From Pseudosulfitobacter pseudonitzschiae (GTDB taxonomy: Bacteria > Pseudomonadota > Alphaproteobacteria > Rhodobacterales > Rhodobacteraceae): 64,000 bases of DNA. This document shows positions 38,154 through 56,749 of the stretch, piece by piece. The position numbers and the translations under genes were made by a program. Within the stretch, counting starts at the first letter, position 1. Every line of letters starts with the position of its first letter. The stretch is taken from the NCBI RefSeq assembly GCF_002222635.1, contig NZ_CP022416.1, forward strand, positions 1 to 64,000, given 5' to 3'. Under the pieces are notes generated by a model, which saw only the letters and a list, made by a program, of their open reading frames with translations, had not been told where the DNA came from and made no database searches.

Positions 38154-38486
38154 ATGACGAAAAGCAAAATGGCAAATCGCTACTCGCCTGAGGTCCGCGC
38201 ACGTGCGGTCCGGATGGTGTTTGAGCATCAAGGTTCATACGAAACGCAGGCGGGCGCGATTGCGGCCATTGCACCCAAGATCGGCTGTATTCCCCAGACC
38301 TTGAGCGGATGGGTCAAGCAGGCCGAGAAAGACAGCGGCATGCGCGACGGGGTGACAACCGAAGAGCGTGATCGCATCAAGACGCTGGAACGGGAAAACC
38401 GTGAGCTGCGCCAGGCGAATGAAATTCTTCGCAAGGCGTCAGCTTATTTTGCGCAGGCGGAACTCGACCGCCCACTCAAGCGATGA
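38154..38486 (+). CDS. IS3-family OrfA (HTH protein)
   Basis: 110 residues from ATG 38154 (AAGGA ahead; 38145 and 38148 are other ATGs). HTH-type start [20 protein letters not shown] followed by a leucine-zipper-like stretch [33 protein letters not shown]. It ends in ATGA overlap with orfB, suggesting translational coupling or a frameshift-made OrfAB fusion. Confidence 0.9.
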
Positions 38487-39388
38487 TCGGCTTCATCGAC
38501 GATCAAAGGGCTGTTTACGGTGTCGAGTCGATCTGCAGGGTGCTGCCGATCGCGCCGTCAACATATTACCACCGATTGGCGTGCCTTGCTGATCCATCCA
38601 GAACTTGGGCCCGGCATCAGCGCGACACGGAGCTGCGTCCCGAGATCAAGCGTGTCTGGGATGAGAATTATCAGGTCTACGGGGTGCGTAAGGCATGGCA
38701 TCAGCTGAAGCGGGAGGGCTTTATGCTCGCGCGTTGCACCGTGGAGCGCCTGATGAAACAGATCGGGATCCGTGGGGCTGTGCGCGGCAAGGTGGCCAAA
38801 ACAACCGTCCCTGACACGTCAGCGCCTTGTCCGCGTGACAAGGTGAACCGCGTGTTCCGAGCACCAGCTCCGAACCTTCTCTGGGTCAGCGATTTTACGT
38901 ATGTGTCGACGTGGCAGGGCTTTGTCTATGTGGCCTTCGTCATCGATACGTTTGCTGATCGCATCGTCGGATGGCGGGTCTCGCGATCCGCCAAAACGGA
39001 CTTTGTTCTCGATGCTTTGGAGCAGGCCCTGCATGATCGACGGCCGGTCCAGAAAAGTGGATTGGTTCACCATTCGGATCGCGGCGGTCAATATTTGTCC
39101 ATTCGTTACACCGAGCGTTTGGCTGAGGCTGGCATCGAACCGTCGGTCGGCAGCGTCGGGGATTCCTATGATAACGCCCTCGCTGAGACAATTAACGGTC
39201 TCTACAAAACAGAGCTGGTCCATCGCCAAGGACCGTGGCGCAACATGCAGGATCTGGAACTGGCCACCCTCGGCTGGGTCGATTGGTTCAACAACCGGCG
39301 CCTGCTGGGCCCCATCGGAAACATCCCGCCAGCAGAGGCTGAACAGAACTTCTATGCACAGCACGACGTGCTCGATATGGTCGCGTGA
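38483..39388 (+). CDS. IS3-family OrfB transposase
   Basis: 301 residues. HTH_21 region ([17 protein letters not shown]) then the integrase core with DDE residues: D in [23 protein letters not shown] in [12 protein letters not shown] in [18 protein letters not shown]51/IS911-like branch. Full length. Confidence 0.93.
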
Positions 39389-43297: not shown

Positions 43298-44326
43298 TCA
43301 GGCGATCGCAACTTGTGCGGGGTCCCGGTAGTCTTCCTTTTTGGTGAGCATCGCCCAGATCGCGCGTGCCATCTTGTTTGCCAGGGCGATCGCGACAAGG
43401 AGCCTCGGTTTTCTGTCCAGCATCTTTGCCAACCATGAACCGGGCTGGATTCTTTTCCGGCCGAGCCAGTTCAATCGCGTCATCGCGCCGGTGATCAACA
43501 GTCTTCGGATGTCTGCCTGTCCTGCCTTGGAGATACGTCCCAGCCTGGCTTTGCCGCCGGAGGAATGCTGCCGAGGGACGATACCAAGCCAGGCTGCGAA
43601 GCTGCGGCCGCATTTGAAAGTCTCCATTGGCGGCGCGAAGGTTTCGATGGCCAATGCCGTGATCGGTCCGAGACCGGGCATCGTCTGGAGCCGTCTCGCC
43701 GTTTCCGCATCTTTTGCGAGTTCCCTGGCCATCTGCGTCTTCGTATTGATACGCGTTGTCTTTTCTGCGATCTGCTCGATCAAATCTAGACACTCTGTGC
43801 GGACAATATCGGACAACACGGTGGCGGGATCACGAAGCGTTGCCTCAATGCGTCCGATTTGCTCGAAGCCTGTCGGGAACGTGAGGCCATGCTCATAGAG
43901 AATGGAGCGAACAACGTTGACCAGTTCGGTCCTTTGGTAGAGCAGTCGCTCGCGTGCACGGAAGACAACTGCTCTTGCCTGCTGTTCTTCCGTCTTCGGC
44001 TCGACGAAGCGCATTTCCGGACGTTGCGCGGCAATGACAATCGCTTCCGCGTCCGCCGCGTCGTTTTTCTGCCGCTTAACAAACGGTCGAACGTACTGAG
44101 GTGCTACGAGTTTGACATCATGGCCCAGCCCGGCCAATTCCCTTGCCCAGAAGTTGGCACCGCCGCAGGCTTCCATAACGACCACCGCTGGATCATGCGA
44201 TTCCATGAACCGCACAAATCCCTGTCGCGACAGTTTCTTTCGGAACTTCAGTTCACCCGTCATTGATGTGCCGTGCAGCTGAAAAACTGACTTCGACAGG
44301 TCAACGCCAATCATTGTATCCTTCAT
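43298..44326 (-). CDS. IS1111-group transposase (DEDD/Ser recombinase)
   Basis: 342 residues. RuvC-like N-terminus MKDTMIGVDLSKSVFQLHG (D), VVVMEACGGANFW (E), KRQKNDAADAEAI (D,D); C-terminal Tnp domain with MPGLGPITALAIETF and WLGIVPRQHSSGGKARLG containing the conserved serine. RBS GAGGACGG. Full length, distinct from the 53-56 kb transposase (about one half identical by eye). Confidence 0.93.
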   Translation of the reverse strand: MKDTMIGVDLSKSVFQLHGTSMTGELKFRKKLSRQGFVRFMESHDPAVVVMEACGGANFWARELAGLGHDVKLVAPQYVRPFVKRQKNDAADAEAIVIAAQRPEMRFVEPKTEEQQARAVVFRARERLLYQRTELVNVVRSILYEHGLTFPTGFEQIGRIEATLRDPATVLSDIVRTECLDLIEQIAEKTTRINTKTQMARELAKDAETARRLQTMPGLGPITALAIETFAPPMETFKCGRSFAAWLGIVPRQHSSGGKARLGRISKAGQADIRRLLITGAMTRLNWLGRKRIQPGSWLAKMLDRKPRLLVAIALANKMARAIWAMLTKKEDYRDPAQVAIA

Positions 44327-44579
44327 TTTGCCGTCCTCTCTTATTGATCATCAACAAAATCAATATGGCACATTGCGATGCCGTTTCGGGAGGGCGGCAA
44401 CCATCCCATCTCTCCGAGGTCGCGCATTGCGCCTCATGATGGTTTTCGGTGGTGGATCGTCTCCAATGTCGTTTGCGGGGTGGGCAAGCGAGCCTGCGCC
44501 CCAACCGTTTTTACGAGATCGATCTACCTCCGTCCCGTCGGGACTTCGCTTCCCGCCTTCTCAGCGGCGGAAATTCAGA

Positions 44580-52951: not shown

Positions 52952-53147
52952 ACGTCAGTTTCACGGACCTTTTTTGCATTCCCAAGTTAAGGAAATGGCT
53001 TTTTGCTGACATTCCATTTTGCTCATGTTAGCAAAGCGGCACTTTCTTAACGCGAGGCAGGGAACATGTTAAAGCCGACCTATGCCATCCCCGTGCTGCC
53101 CCCCCGAGGCGGAAGTCGAAACGGTATTGCCATGTGTGGACGGTTCC

Positions 53148-53394
53148 TGTTTAGCAAGGTTTTTTTGACGTCATGATCATCGCGGGTTGCGGTCATGTGT
53201 CCGGCCTTTTCGCGCGGCACCGTTGGCCGCTGGCCCTGATGAAGTCCGCCTGCCAGATCCCTATCAAGTTGTCGGACTTCGTCTGTCCTGGCAATACCTC
53301 GGGGTGTTCTGGCTGCGGCTTGCTTTGATCATCATCACGTCTTTTGCCCTTGCATCTCAGTGTGCTGCGTAAACAATGCAGCGCTGTTCACTGT
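53148..53394 (-). ncRNA. Candidate seekRNA/bridge-RNA region, copy A
   Basis: Mirror image of 56381-56627. Contains the guide-like segments at 53289-53298 (RNA sense GGTATTGCCA) and 53263-53272 (RNA sense ACAACTTGAT). A 61-codon open frame over this stretch (53187-53372) has no RBS and no recognisable protein content and is read here as chance. Confidence 0.6.
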
Positions 53395-54408
53395 TTATGA
53401 GGCTCGATAGGTTCCTCCTCTCGCCAAGAGTGCCCATATGATCCGAGCGGTTTTGTTGGCCATTGCGACACTGACCAGTCGAGAGGCCTTGCGTTCTAGC
53501 AGGCTGCGGATCCAATTCGCGGTTCGCGTTTGCGTATCAGCAACACGCCTCAGAATAGCTGTGGCCCCAACCACGAGGAGTTTACGCAAATATCCGTCAC
53601 CCATTTTGGTAATACGTCCCAATCGCTCTTTGCCGCCGGATGAATTTTGTCGGGGAACCAACCCGAGAAAGGCTGCAAATTGGCGTCCGGATCGGAAGAG
53701 CGAGGGGTCCGTAACCGAAGCAGCCATCGCTGTCGCGGTCAGCACTCCAACTCCCGGAATGGTCGATAATCGCTGGCTGGTTTCACTCGAGCGATGCCAT
53801 GCAAGGATCTTGCGATCAAGTGCGCTGATTTCTTGTGTCAGACTGGTGAGTTGGCCGGCCAGACTCAGCAAAGCAGATCGGGCGACCTCTGTGATGCCGC
53901 CATTGCTGTCCTCTTCGAGTTGCTGGATCAACCCGAGAACATTCTGAGGCCTCTGTGGCGCAATGATCCCCAGCTCAGCCATATGCGCGCGCAGTGCATT
54001 TATCAGCATTGTGCGCTGCCGTACGAGAAGGTCACGGACCCGGTGCAGCATCATGGCCGCCTGCTGATCGACACTTTTTATGGCCACAAAGTGCATATTC
54101 GGGCGCGTAACAGCCTCGCAAATAGCCTCCGCATCAGCCGCATCATTCTTTTGCCGCTTAACGTAGGGTTTTACATAGGCCGGGGGAATGAGCCGCACAT
54201 CGTGGCCTAGTGCCGTGATCTCACGGGCCCAATGGTGCGACGTCGCACAAGCCTCCATGCCGATCAGGCAAGGGGGCAATTTAGCCAAGGTATCTAGGAC
54301 TGCACTCCGGCGAAGCTTCTTCTGCAGAACGGTCTGGCCTGCCGCATCGACACCGTGAAATTGAAAAACTGACTTTGCAATGTCGATTCCTATCGTTGTA
54401 ATTTCCAT
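53395..54408 (-). CDS. IS1111-group transposase, copy A
   Basis: 337 residues from ATG 54408 (AAAGGA 9 nt upstream; open to 54447). Catalytic landmarks: TIGIDIAKSVFQFHG (D), IGMEACATSHHW (E), KRQKNDAADAEAI (D,D), TIPGVGVLTATAMAA and FLGLVPRQNSSGGKERLG (Ser). Identical to the plus-strand copy at 55367-56380. Confidence 0.95.
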   Translation of the reverse strand: MEITTIGIDIAKSVFQFHGVDAAGQTVLQKKLRRSAVLDTLAKLPPCLIGMEACATSHHWAREITALGHDVRLIPPAYVKPYVKRQKNDAADAEAICEAVTRPNMHFVAIKSVDQQAAMMLHRVRDLLVRQRTMLINALRAHMAELGIIAPQRPQNVLGLIQQLEEDSNGGITEVARSALLSLAGQLTSLTQEISALDRKILAWHRSSETSQRLSTIPGVGVLTATAMAASVTDPSLFRSGRQFAAFLGLVPRQNSSGGKERLGRITKMGDGYLRKLLVVGATAILRRVADTQTRTANWIRSLLERKASRLVSVAMANKTARIIWALLARGGTYRAS

Positions 54409-54534
54409 CTGGGCGGTTCCTTTCAGAGCTGGTTCAAACACCAGCACTTTGGCACATTGCGATGCCGGTGGGTGGAACCGTCCACCTCATCAAGTTGTTG
54501 ACAGCGGATTGTGCTTCCCTGGGAAAGGTGTGGA

Positions 54535-55245
54535 TCACGCGGTCATCTCAGCGGTGTAATCGGCCCAGAGGCTGAACGCATCGTTGCGGGCGTGGCGGTA
54601 TGAGGTTGCTGTGAGTTGATAGCGCCGGGGACGGAAAATGAGGTTGATTTGGTCGTGCGCGGATAGAAACCTCTGTGCCTGCCGGTGAGACTTGAACCGA
54701 CCCATTATTTTCTCTCGTTTGCGGGTTGGCCGATGCGAAACTTCTATCGCGTTGTTTAGGCCTTTGTGGGCCCGGTGGTCAGCGTTCGGAGCCTGTGTTT
54801 TGACCGGCTTGATATAGCTGCGCAATTTGTCGGTTATGACCACCCTCGGCTCGCCAAACTGTGAAACCAATCTTTGGAAAAAGCGCTTTGCTGCTTTGGC
54901 ATTCCGAGGTGTCTGCACGAGAATATCGAGAACGTCTCCATCTGCGTCGATCGCGCGCCACAGCCAATGCTTCTTGCCACGGATCGTGATCACGATCTCA
55001 TCCATGTGCCACTTGTCGTTCGGCCGCGGACGTTCGCGGCGGATGCAATCTGCAAAATGCGACCCAAAGCGACTAACCCACAGTCGGATCGGCTCCCGGC
55101 TGACAATCACACCCCGAACAGCCAATAGGTCTTCAACATCAGCCGTGCTCAGGGCCAACCGGTGATACGCCCAGACAGCGCACGCGATGATTTCACGAGT
55201 GTAGCGGAAGCCCTTCAGGGGCGGCAAATCGGTCGGAATGTTCAT
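54535..55245 (-). CDS. IS6-family transposase inside the nested element
   Basis: 236 residues, full length. GFRYTREIIACAVWAYHRLALSTADVEDLL at the N-terminus; DDE residues D in WHMDEIVITIRG, D in VVITDKLRSYI, E in LNNAIEVSHRP. Intact, although both terminal repeats of the element are interrupted, which should stop it moving unless the compound ends are still recognised. Confidence 0.93.
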   Translation of the reverse strand: MNIPTDLPPLKGFRYTREIIACAVWAYHRLALSTADVEDLLAVRGVIVSREPIRLWVSRFGSHFADCIRRERPRPNDKWHMDEIVITIRGKKHWLWRAIDADGDVLDILVQTPRNAKAAKRFFQRLVSQFGEPRVVITDKLRSYIKPVKTQAPNADHRAHKGLNNAIEVSHRPTRKREKIMGRFKSHRQAQRFLSAHDQINLIFRPRRYQLTATSYRHARNDAFSLWADYTAEMTA

Positions 55246-55366
55246 GCGGCTGACATACCTCTACCAAACCCAGTCAACAACTTGATGAGGTGGACGGTTC
55301 CACCCACCGGCATCGCAATGTGCCAAAGTGCTGGTGTTTGAACCAGCTCTGAAAGGAACCGCCCAG

Positions 55367-56380
55367 ATGGAAATTACAACGATAGGAATCGACATTGCAA
55401 AGTCAGTTTTTCAATTTCACGGTGTCGATGCGGCAGGCCAGACCGTTCTGCAGAAGAAGCTTCGCCGGAGTGCAGTCCTAGATACCTTGGCTAAATTGCC
55501 CCCTTGCCTGATCGGCATGGAGGCTTGTGCGACGTCGCACCATTGGGCCCGTGAGATCACGGCACTAGGCCACGATGTGCGGCTCATTCCCCCGGCCTAT
55601 GTAAAACCCTACGTTAAGCGGCAAAAGAATGATGCGGCTGATGCGGAGGCTATTTGCGAGGCTGTTACGCGCCCGAATATGCACTTTGTGGCCATAAAAA
55701 GTGTCGATCAGCAGGCGGCCATGATGCTGCACCGGGTCCGTGACCTTCTCGTACGGCAGCGCACAATGCTGATAAATGCACTGCGCGCGCATATGGCTGA
55801 GCTGGGGATCATTGCGCCACAGAGGCCTCAGAATGTTCTCGGGTTGATCCAGCAACTCGAAGAGGACAGCAATGGCGGCATCACAGAGGTCGCCCGATCT
55901 GCTTTGCTGAGTCTGGCCGGCCAACTCACCAGTCTGACACAAGAAATCAGCGCACTTGATCGCAAGATCCTTGCATGGCATCGCTCGAGTGAAACCAGCC
56001 AGCGATTATCGACCATTCCGGGAGTTGGAGTGCTGACCGCGACAGCGATGGCTGCTTCGGTTACGGACCCCTCGCTCTTCCGATCCGGACGCCAATTTGC
56101 AGCCTTTCTCGGGTTGGTTCCCCGACAAAATTCATCCGGCGGCAAAGAGCGATTGGGACGTATTACCAAAATGGGTGACGGATATTTGCGTAAACTCCTC
56201 GTGGTTGGGGCCACAGCTATTCTGAGGCGTGTTGCTGATACGCAAACGCGAACCGCGAATTGGATCCGCAGCCTGCTAGAACGCAAGGCCTCTCGACTGG
56301 TCAGTGTCGCAATGGCCAACAAAACCGCTCGGATCATATGGGCACTCTTGGCGAGAGGAGGAACCTATCGAGCCTCATAA
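55367..56380 (+). CDS. IS1111-group transposase, copy B
   Basis: 337 residues, same sequence as copy A. ATG 55367 follows GAAAGGAACC. All four DEDD residues and the C-terminal serine are present. Stop at 56380 is followed by non-coding DNA that carries the putative guide RNA. Confidence 0.95.
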   Translation: MEITTIGIDIAKSVFQFHGVDAAGQTVLQKKLRRSAVLDTLAKLPPCLIGMEACATSHHWAREITALGHDVRLIPPAYVKPYVKRQKNDAADAEAICEAVTRPNMHFVAIKSVDQQAAMMLHRVRDLLVRQRTMLINALRAHMAELGIIAPQRPQNVLGLIQQLEEDSNGGITEVARSALLSLAGQLTSLTQEISALDRKILAWHRSSETSQRLSTIPGVGVLTATAMAASVTDPSLFRSGRQFAAFLGLVPRQNSSGGKERLGRITKMGDGYLRKLLVVGATAILRRVADTQTRTANWIRSLLERKASRLVSVAMANKTARIIWALLARGGTYRAS

Positions 56381-56627
56381 ACAGTGAACAGCGCTGCATT
56401 GTTTACGCAGCACACTGAGATGCAAGGGCAAAAGACGTGATGATGATCAAAGCAAGCCGCAGCCAGAACACCCCGAGGTATTGCCAGGACAGACGAAGTC
56501 CGACAACTTGATAGGGATCTGGCAGGCGGACTTCATCAGGGCCAGCGGCCAACGGTGCCGCGCGAAAAGGCCGGACACATGACCGCAACCCGCGATGATC
56601 ATGACGTCAAAAAAACCTTGCTAAACA
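56381..56627 (+). ncRNA. Candidate seekRNA/bridge-RNA region, copy B
   Basis: 3' non-coding region of the IS1111 element. GGTATTGCCA (56477-56486) is the reverse complement of the 3' target half TGGCAATACC (56643-56652). ACAACTTGAT (56503-56512) equals the 5' target half (55277-55286). The second sits at the start of a 24-nt loop closed by the 8-bp stem GAAGTCCG (56495-56502) / CGGACTTC (56527-56534). Two target-matching arms of opposite sense next to a stem-loop is the expected design of an IS1111 seekRNA. Transcript limits are not known. Confidence 0.7.
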
Positions 56628-56749
56628 GGAACCGTCCACACATGGCAATACCAGGCAGCATGATCTTCCAGCCAGACAGGGGTTGTTCATATCGCATCAA
56701 TTAACGCAGCAGAACACCGTGTGAACATTAACCTTTGTCACCCGCCCGA

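Follow-up and report, generated by a model that had tools for sequence, protein, structure and literature searches.

A predicted guide RNA of an IS1111-type insertion sequence matches the tip of an IS6 element in Pseudosulfitobacter pseudonitzschiae

IS4321 and IS5075, two IS1111 elements, were reportedly described by Partridge and Hall in 2003 at the terminal inverted repeats of the Tn21 family. The guide-RNA mechanism has been known since 2024, and the closest described systems are the IS1111 seekRNA systems of ISEc11, ISKpn4 and ISPa11 (Siddiquee et al., 2024; PMC11187229). They combine a DEDD recombinase with sub-terminal repeats, outside of which IS1111 elements carry extensions of 7 bp at the left and 3 bp at the right end. 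The RNA stems from the 3' non-coding region, the complement of the top strand comes first, and the two matches overlap in the target (PMC11187229). In the bridge RNA of the IS110-type element IS621, target and donor guides each include the core dinucleotide, and for many IS1111 RNAs potential donor-binding nucleotides lie in a multi-loop (Durrant et al., 2024; PMC11208160). For genome engineering, the programmable recombinases of the IS110 family are attractive (PMC11187229; PMC11208160).

Here, a new member is described from Pseudosulfitobacter pseudonitzschiae. The window, i.e., the whole stretch of DNA that was analysed, comprises 64,000 nucleotides (NCBI RefSeq assembly GCF_002222635.1, contig NZ_CP022416.1, positions 1 to 64,000). 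The element shares with ISEc11, ISKpn4 and ISPa11 all the features listed above, and with IS621 the presence of the core dinucleotide in target and donor guides. Very probably, a guide RNA directs the insertion sequence into the terminal inverted repeat of an IS6 element, in one orientation and at either tip.

The insertion sequence and its place in an IS6 element

The window contains two copies of the insertion sequence, which are mutually inverted and 100% identical over 1380 nt, including 10 bp of common flank per side. The features of the locus are as follows:

55283..56642, plus strand: IS1111-group insertion sequence, copy 1 (1360 bp without flanks)
53133..54492, minus strand: second copy, inverted, at the opposite tip of the same IS6 element (identity 100%)
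55328..56380, plus strand: IS110-family (IS1111-type) recombinase, 350 aa from the first listed start
55290..55301, plus strand: left sub-terminal inverted repeat GTGGACGGTTCC (12/12 bp)
56628..56639, plus strand: right sub-terminal inverted repeat GGAACCGTCCAC (12/12 bp)
54535..55245, minus strand: IS6-family transposase between the two copies, 236 aa (PF13610; NF033587, 208.2 bits)
55273..55282, plus strand: left target flank GTCAACAACT, inner part of the IS6 tip
56643..56652, plus strand: right target flank TGGCAATACC, starting with the core TG, outermost 10 bp of the IS6 tip

The recombinase is recognised by PF01548 (62.2 bits), PF02371 (88 bits) and NF033542, "IS110 family RNA-guided transposase" (347.8 bits), its phmmer matches include the solved structures of the ISCro4 and IS621 recombinases, and the motif GL-P----S(T)G is present as GLVPRQNSSG at residues 262-271. 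The 12-bp repeats are followed outwards by TGATGAG (7 bp) on the left and ACA (3 bp) on the right, and therefore the ends were placed at 55283 and 56642 in analogy to the extensions of IS1111 elements (PMC11187229); the empty site in uninterrupted relatives is a further basis for this placement. The non-coding region 3' of the gene comprises 262 nt (56381-56642), in contrast to 45 nt upstream of the first listed start. The element is assigned to the IS1111 group of the IS110 family: profile matches and motif indicate a DEDD recombinase with a C-terminal Transposase_20 domain, the repeats, extensions and long 3' non-coding region are present, no target duplication occurs, the orientation relative to the target is always the same, and removal of the element regenerates the site exactly. 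Placement in the IS110 group (IS621 type) was ruled out by the location of the predicted guide RNA downstream of the gene and the repeats of 12 bp.

The window contains a further IS110-type gene at 43527-44383, which is 41% identical, and two more copies of it are found elsewhere in the genome (L116-L118). An ALIL pseudoknot, a frameshift signal of IS3-type elements, is located at 38441-38557 (RF01497, 111.5 bits).

The joined flanks, GTCAACAACT|TGGCAATACC, represent the predicted 20-bp empty site. IS6 relatives in plasmids were searched for it; 453 records matched, and seven were compared (L109-L115). The exact 20-mer is present at one end of three of these seven uninterrupted relatives (L109, L110, L111), their opposite ends deviate by 1, 1 and 2 mismatches, and the two ends of the other four (L112-L115) have 1-4 differences. 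The occupied site is therefore the terminal inverted repeat of an IS6 element, which is characterised here by an IS6 transposase and by short terminal inverted repeats with tips recognised via L109-L111. The same comparison reveals that TG is common to the left end of the insertion sequence, the right flank and the RNA. The guided site is the 16-bp sequence ACAACTTGGCAATACC, and both arms of the guide include the core TG.

Both tips of the only such IS6 element in the window are occupied by the two identical, inverted copies, and the IS6 interior lies on the left of the insertion sequence in both of them as well as in those relatives that adjoin an IS6 element. An intact CAACTTGGCAATACC with fewer than two mismatches was not found anywhere else in the genome; with both tips occupied, no further site of this kind is available. 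The remaining IS6-like matches in the genome do not exceed 81% identity over short pieces, or 72% where they span 100 nt or more. IS6 elements usually make an 8-bp direct repeat. Such a repeat is absent at the outer IS6 ends (53115-53122 and 56653-56660; GTCGAAAC versus AGGCAGCA), and therefore the IS6 region may have been rearranged later.

The predicted guide RNA encoded downstream of the recombinase gene

The non-coding region 3' of the recombinase gene contains the following elements of the predicted RNA:

56441..56582, plus strand: predicted guide RNA core (target loop and donor guides), with a conserved fold in an alignment of 23 sequences
56457..56529, plus strand: closing stems of the target loop, CCGC/GCGG, GCCAGA/TCTGGC and CCC/GGG
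56477..56486, plus strand: right target guide GGTATTGCCA (10/10; swap test)
56487..56501, plus strand: hairpin GGAC/GTCC between the target guides (100% of cells paired, 23/23)
56503..56510, plus strand: left target guide ACAACTTG (8/8; swap test)
56532..56538, plus strand: TTCATCA, the probable right donor guide (pairs with the left end TGATGAG, one G-U pair included)
56575..56582, plus strand: left donor guide ACACATGA, equal to the right end ACACA plus TGA of the predicted circle junction

The right target guide is the reverse complement of TG plus GCAATACC, and the left target guide equals ACAACT plus TG. The two stretches are complementary to one target strand each, and the complement of the top strand precedes the match to the bottom strand, as in IS1111 seekRNAs. 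An initial annotation of the window had proposed a two-armed guide of the seekRNA or bridge type at this position. Its letters and coordinates were right (GGTATTGCCA at 56477-56486, TGGCAATACC at 56643-56652, ACAACTTGAT at 55277-55286 and 56503-56512), and so was its view that a chance occurrence of both arms is very unlikely: when the non-coding region was shuffled 20,000 times with its dinucleotides preserved, 4 shuffles contained the first 10-mer and 138 the 8-mer ACAACTTG, but none contained both. ACAACTTGAT had been taken as the 5' half of the target, which is true for 8 nt, but its last 2 nt are the element's own left end. The proposed 19-bp site joined at a T had to be replaced; the arms overlap by TG, the guided site has 16 bp, and the empty tips read ACAACTTGGCAATACC.

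That the 3' non-coding region encodes a natural guide of the seekRNA or bridge type, with two target arms of opposite sense, is well supported by swap tests of guides and flanks, by a conserved and covarying fold and by the exact empty site. The initial proposal was thus borne out in kind but not in its site and its stem; the second identical copy, the IS6 tip as the target and the donor guides come in addition to it. No Rfam family matched positions 56300-56700 up to an E value of 1.

The swap tests were based on the best 80 of 409 relatives plus the element of the window. Ends could be placed in 65 of the 81 loci, and the 57 with full flanks were kept; left out were the other 16 and 8 of the 65 with incomplete flanks, odd length or a lost left end. 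A MAFFT alignment of the whole non-coding regions misaligns the arms, and arm 1 was placed by a conserved TGANNGGGA-type motif instead. The 49 distinct guides agree with their own flanks at 6.39 of 8 positions (arm 1) and 4.27 of 6 positions (arm 2), compared to 4.69 and 1.91 with swapped flanks, and none of 50,000 swaps, which ignore relatedness, reached either value. For the close clade of 22, the values are 6.86 versus 5.65 and 4.36 versus 2.69, again with 0 of 50,000 swaps as high and relatedness ignored. The comparison of guide arms with flanks across elements, which the initial annotation had suggested, thus revealed that guides follow their sites; the opposite pattern, the same 10-mers at unrelated sites without covariation, was not found in these tests, which take no account of relatedness. 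In the relatives the agreement is mostly imperfect. Among 58 rows, only the window element and L027 score 8/8 plus 6/6, arm 1 matches at merely 4-5 of 8 positions in L036, L038, L047, L051, L060, L104 and others, and the outermost position of the left arm agrees in 9 of 49 guides, compared to 49 of 57 for the core.

A tree-aware pairing, based on a quick tree with too small a number of independent pairs for p to fall to 0.05 (and with a broken frame and a wild branch for row L064), mostly pointed in the same direction, with opposite results in some pairs at position -4 of the left flank; no position was significant (best median p 0.0625), and only 2 pairs were available for the right end versus the donor guide. 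A held-out set was also collected, 29 loci from 394 genomes of the family, 10 of which were testable (the ends could not be placed in 16) and at least 3 of these 10 repeat loci of the first set (L134, L135, L136; judged by equal flanks and RNA). In these 10, arm 2 exceeded all 50,000 swaps and the value of arm 1 was reached by 13 of 50,000; arm 2 scored 0/6 in L157 and L159, perhaps because of a misplaced anchor. The genome of the window itself contains cousins of the element. Of 17 stretches, only L127 and L129-L132 have convincing ends, and L129-L132 represent one guide at four places with one site consensus, i.e., a right TGGGA[AG]G and a TCAT-like left half, as the guide demands with some mismatch.

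The fold was derived from the window sequence and 22 relatives. In this alignment 97.1% of the cells are paired and 7 pairs are changed on both sides; sliding the fold by one base lowers pairing to 32-44%, and it collapses at shifts of 1-3 columns. RNAalifold predicts nearly the same structure, with the outer stem shifted by three bases. Covarying pairs are found in GCCAGA/TCTGGC and CCC/GGG, while CCGC/GCGG is nearly invariant; one pair of the GGAC/GTCC hairpin occurs in GC and AU versions, and 3' of the target loop the alignment also retains a GCGGC/GCCGC hairpin. When the window sequence is folded alone, the conserved stems are present together with extra pairs between the arms. Its 130-nt stretch does not stand out in stability (z -1.71; 7 of 200 shuffles did equally well); the whole non-coding region is unusually stable (z -4.44; 0 of 200 shuffles). 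Covariance folding across homologous 3' regions, also put forward in the initial annotation, has thus yielded a conserved fold with 7 double-changed pairs, which differs from the 8-bp stem seen there (GAAGTCCG at 56495-56502, CGGACTTC at 56527-56534, 24-nt loop). That stem is present in the window but not conserved, with 70.5% of the cells paired in the alignment of 23 and no change on both sides.

Donor guides seem to be present alongside the target guides, because a stretch of the RNA follows the right end of the element in 41 of 43 distinct elements (55 of 57 loci; exceptions L038 and L080). Five versions of the right end exist (ACACA, ACAAA, ACATA, ATACA, ACACG), the left donor guide follows all of them, and none of 50,000 swaps reached the observed agreement. 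The count omits 8 of the 65 rows, of which L082, L083, L084, L090 and L048 agree, L091 does not, and L058 and L095 lack reliable ends. In the held-out set the donor arm agrees in 7 of 10 elements (not in L150, L157 and L159). For TTCATCA, the variable positions 6-7 covary with positions 6-7 of the left end (0 of 50,000 swaps). The probable donor role of this stretch is nevertheless the weakest part of the assignment and less certain, because the same stretch pairs with TGATGA (56441-56446) inside the RNA. The presence of donor-binding guides, as in seekRNAs and bridge RNAs, is thus indicated for the left guide and more weakly for the right one.

TGATGA at 56441-56446, the 5' side of the outer stem, copies the left end of the element and pairs with 56533-56538. 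This outer stem recurs, as judged by eye, in distant relatives as TAATGC/GCATTA and TGAAGG/CCTTCA, and it may therefore hold the right donor guide until DNA arrives. Two distant relatives, L048 and L091, have the RNA and the right end, but their left end reads gattAC[CG]CCAT instead of TGATG; in L048, the RNA is similar to the guide that the window element carries for the IS6 tip.

The anatomy, both sets of matches, the covariation, the fold and the empty site are read directly from the sequences, and a course of events can be proposed that joins them. The steps of transcription from a circle, binding of the RNA by the recombinase, pairing and exchange at TG are modelled on the described systems (PMC11187229; PMC11208160). 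The excised element would close into a circle, the junction of which would create a promoter (TTGCTA, 17 nt, CATGAT; 8/12 agreement); a promoter scan found no promoter. The non-coding region downstream of the recombinase gene would be transcribed, most likely from this junction, to yield a bridge-type guide RNA (seekRNA). Read from its 5' end, this RNA would consist of the right target guide, a small hairpin, the left target guide, the closing stem, the right donor guide, a further hairpin and the left donor guide. The RNA-bound recombinase would pair its RNA with both strands of target and donor, strands would be exchanged at TG, and the insertion sequence would enter either IS6 tip in one orientation, its left side facing the IS6 interior.

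Alternatively, the recombinase alone might read the target, and the matches might be captured remnants of target sequence that do no work; capture could account for two short matches within a single element. However, the matches occupy fixed positions of the fold and, across 49 distinct guides, vary together with the site, and in the same family the seekRNA or bridge RNA is needed and programmable (PMC11187229; PMC11208160); we regard capture as highly improbable. Hardly credible either is the target of 19 bp with a single T as the joint and with arm 2 in the 24-nt loop closed by GAAGTCCG/CGGACTTC. Its letters are present, and the two bases after the core are common to the RNA and the left end in 37 of 57 loci, but this agreement is one of a constant left end (AT in 56 of 57) with a varying RNA. 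Furthermore, the uninterrupted tips read ACAACTTGGCAATACC, which argues against 19 bp, and the 8-bp stem is broken at two positions in 20 and 21 of the 23 sequences without compensatory change, in contrast to GGAC/GTCC, which pairs in all 23. In a third scenario, which concerns only the origin of the two copies, the element inserted once and was then duplicated in inverted orientation, or recombination took place around the IS6 element. Such a history would agree with their 100% identity and with the missing 8-bp direct repeat at the outer IS6 ends, which makes a rearrangement possible. Yet the two copies occupy different IS6 tips, each at the position and in the orientation that the guide predicts and with a different inner IS6 sequence on its left; a duplication would need no landing at guided sites, and recent transposition predicts identity as well. 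Such a duplication appears improbable.

IS6 elements as targets among the relatives

Flanks were inspected in the same set, the best 80 of 409 relatives plus the window element. Of the 63 elements with a left flank longer than 40 nt, 15 have a whole or partial IS6-type transposase gene within 210 nt of the left junction; for the right junction the count is 0 of 61, and the nearest such gene there is 777 nt away. In the close clade of 27, which includes the element of the window, 13 have an IS6 gene near the left junction; 14 do not, a few of their flanks being too short or masked. A further search added L137, with an IS6 gene at 47 nt. Pfam detected PF13610 in five of 30 left-flank frames from 27 loci (L030, L035, L040, L046, L064) and in none of 10 right-flank frames. 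Both ends of IS6 genes are targeted among the relatives, and CC at positions 9-10 of the right flank, the outer GG of the IS6 tip, is found in 21 of 26 close-clade elements. Tropicimonas IMCC6043 has three elements (L040, L041, L050) with three guides at three tip sequences, each with an IS6 gene 41-49 nt to the left. In two Pseudosulfitobacter loci (L027, L107), the same insertion sequence, 99% identical, lies beside the remnant of a close relative of the window's IS6 element.

A second matching tip was searched for, with the values for L031, L052 and L055 excluded. The only clear case is L099, with 18/18 at a distance of 817 nt. The best second tips of L035, L029 and L064 score 13/18 at 805, 657 and 808 nt; this is about the best shuffle and is also reached by L032 and L038, which have no IS6 gene, and therefore only the distance supports these three.

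The preference for IS6 tips might be a by-product of guides that recognise short common sequences, with IS6 tips being merely abundant. The 14 of 27 close-clade elements without an IS6 gene near the junction would fit, as would three elements that share another target, one of them (L039) beside a phage capsid gene. On the other hand, the CC at right-flank positions 9-10 in 21 of 26 close-clade elements and the strictly one-sided position of IS6, 15 on the left to 0 on the right, argue against it, and we consider a mere by-product rather unlikely.

The three elements with the other target are sister elements (L039, L047, L051) with the common site CCCA|TGGCC, the joined flanks of which read like a start codon. 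At L039, the next frame is that of a phage major capsid protein E; at L047 and L051, the frame to the right is equally long (332 aa). To judge by these flanks, the guides have been switched from IS6 tips to another site. At L079, a locus of the Bradyrhizobium group, the joined flanks form the palindrome GTCCGCTTT|TGGCACAAAGCGGAC. Partly similar flanks occur in several relatives, and this subclade may therefore aim at a repeated hairpin-like sequence and not at IS6.

We give about even chances to the wider proposal that an alphaproteobacterial clade of RNA-guided IS1111 elements is specialised on IS6, with guides that track the varying tip sequences, with elements that fill one or both tips and immobilise the IS6 element by splitting its terminal repeats, and with sisters that have switched targets. 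The anatomy of the locus suggests that the IS6 element would lose its mobility: the outer 10 bp of a filled tip are now 1360 bp away from the rest, and the tip would therefore be unusable.

Relation to described systems

The predicted guide of the window matches a natural 16-bp site without mismatch, and the empty site is known. In relatives, even closely similar IS6 tips are matched by different guides, three of them within a single genome. The elements thus form a natural data set from which rules for the pairing of target and donor arms in IS1111-type RNAs may be derived. Specialists may find two points of interest: donor guides can be mapped by covariation within an IS1111 clade, and one clade seems to follow IS6 tips. 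Cargo genes are spread by IS6 elements, and their movement could be affected by an RNA-guided element that splits the IS6 tips. If the proposed specialisation is true, it would be a natural RNA-guided brake on another mobile element.

While the guide-RNA mechanism itself is established and the element is a new member, the proposed specialisation on IS6 tips is the fresh part. An earlier description of IS1111 elements at IS6 tips was not found in the literature searched, which included few subscription papers and no preprints. Like IS4321 and IS5075, the element enters the tips of another transposable element; unlike in that case, the victim is an alphaproteobacterial IS6-family element, and both tips of one copy are filled. 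It differs from ISEc11, ISKpn4 and ISPa11 in that its target is an IS6 tip and its RNA is predicted from sequence (PMC11187229). The guides for the donor ends, mapped here by covariation, do not appear in the consulted parts of that paper, and they fit the multi-loop donor nucleotides of IS1111 RNAs (PMC11208160). Compared to the bridge RNA of IS621 (PMC11208160), the order of the arms is reversed, and the RNA is encoded 3' of the gene.
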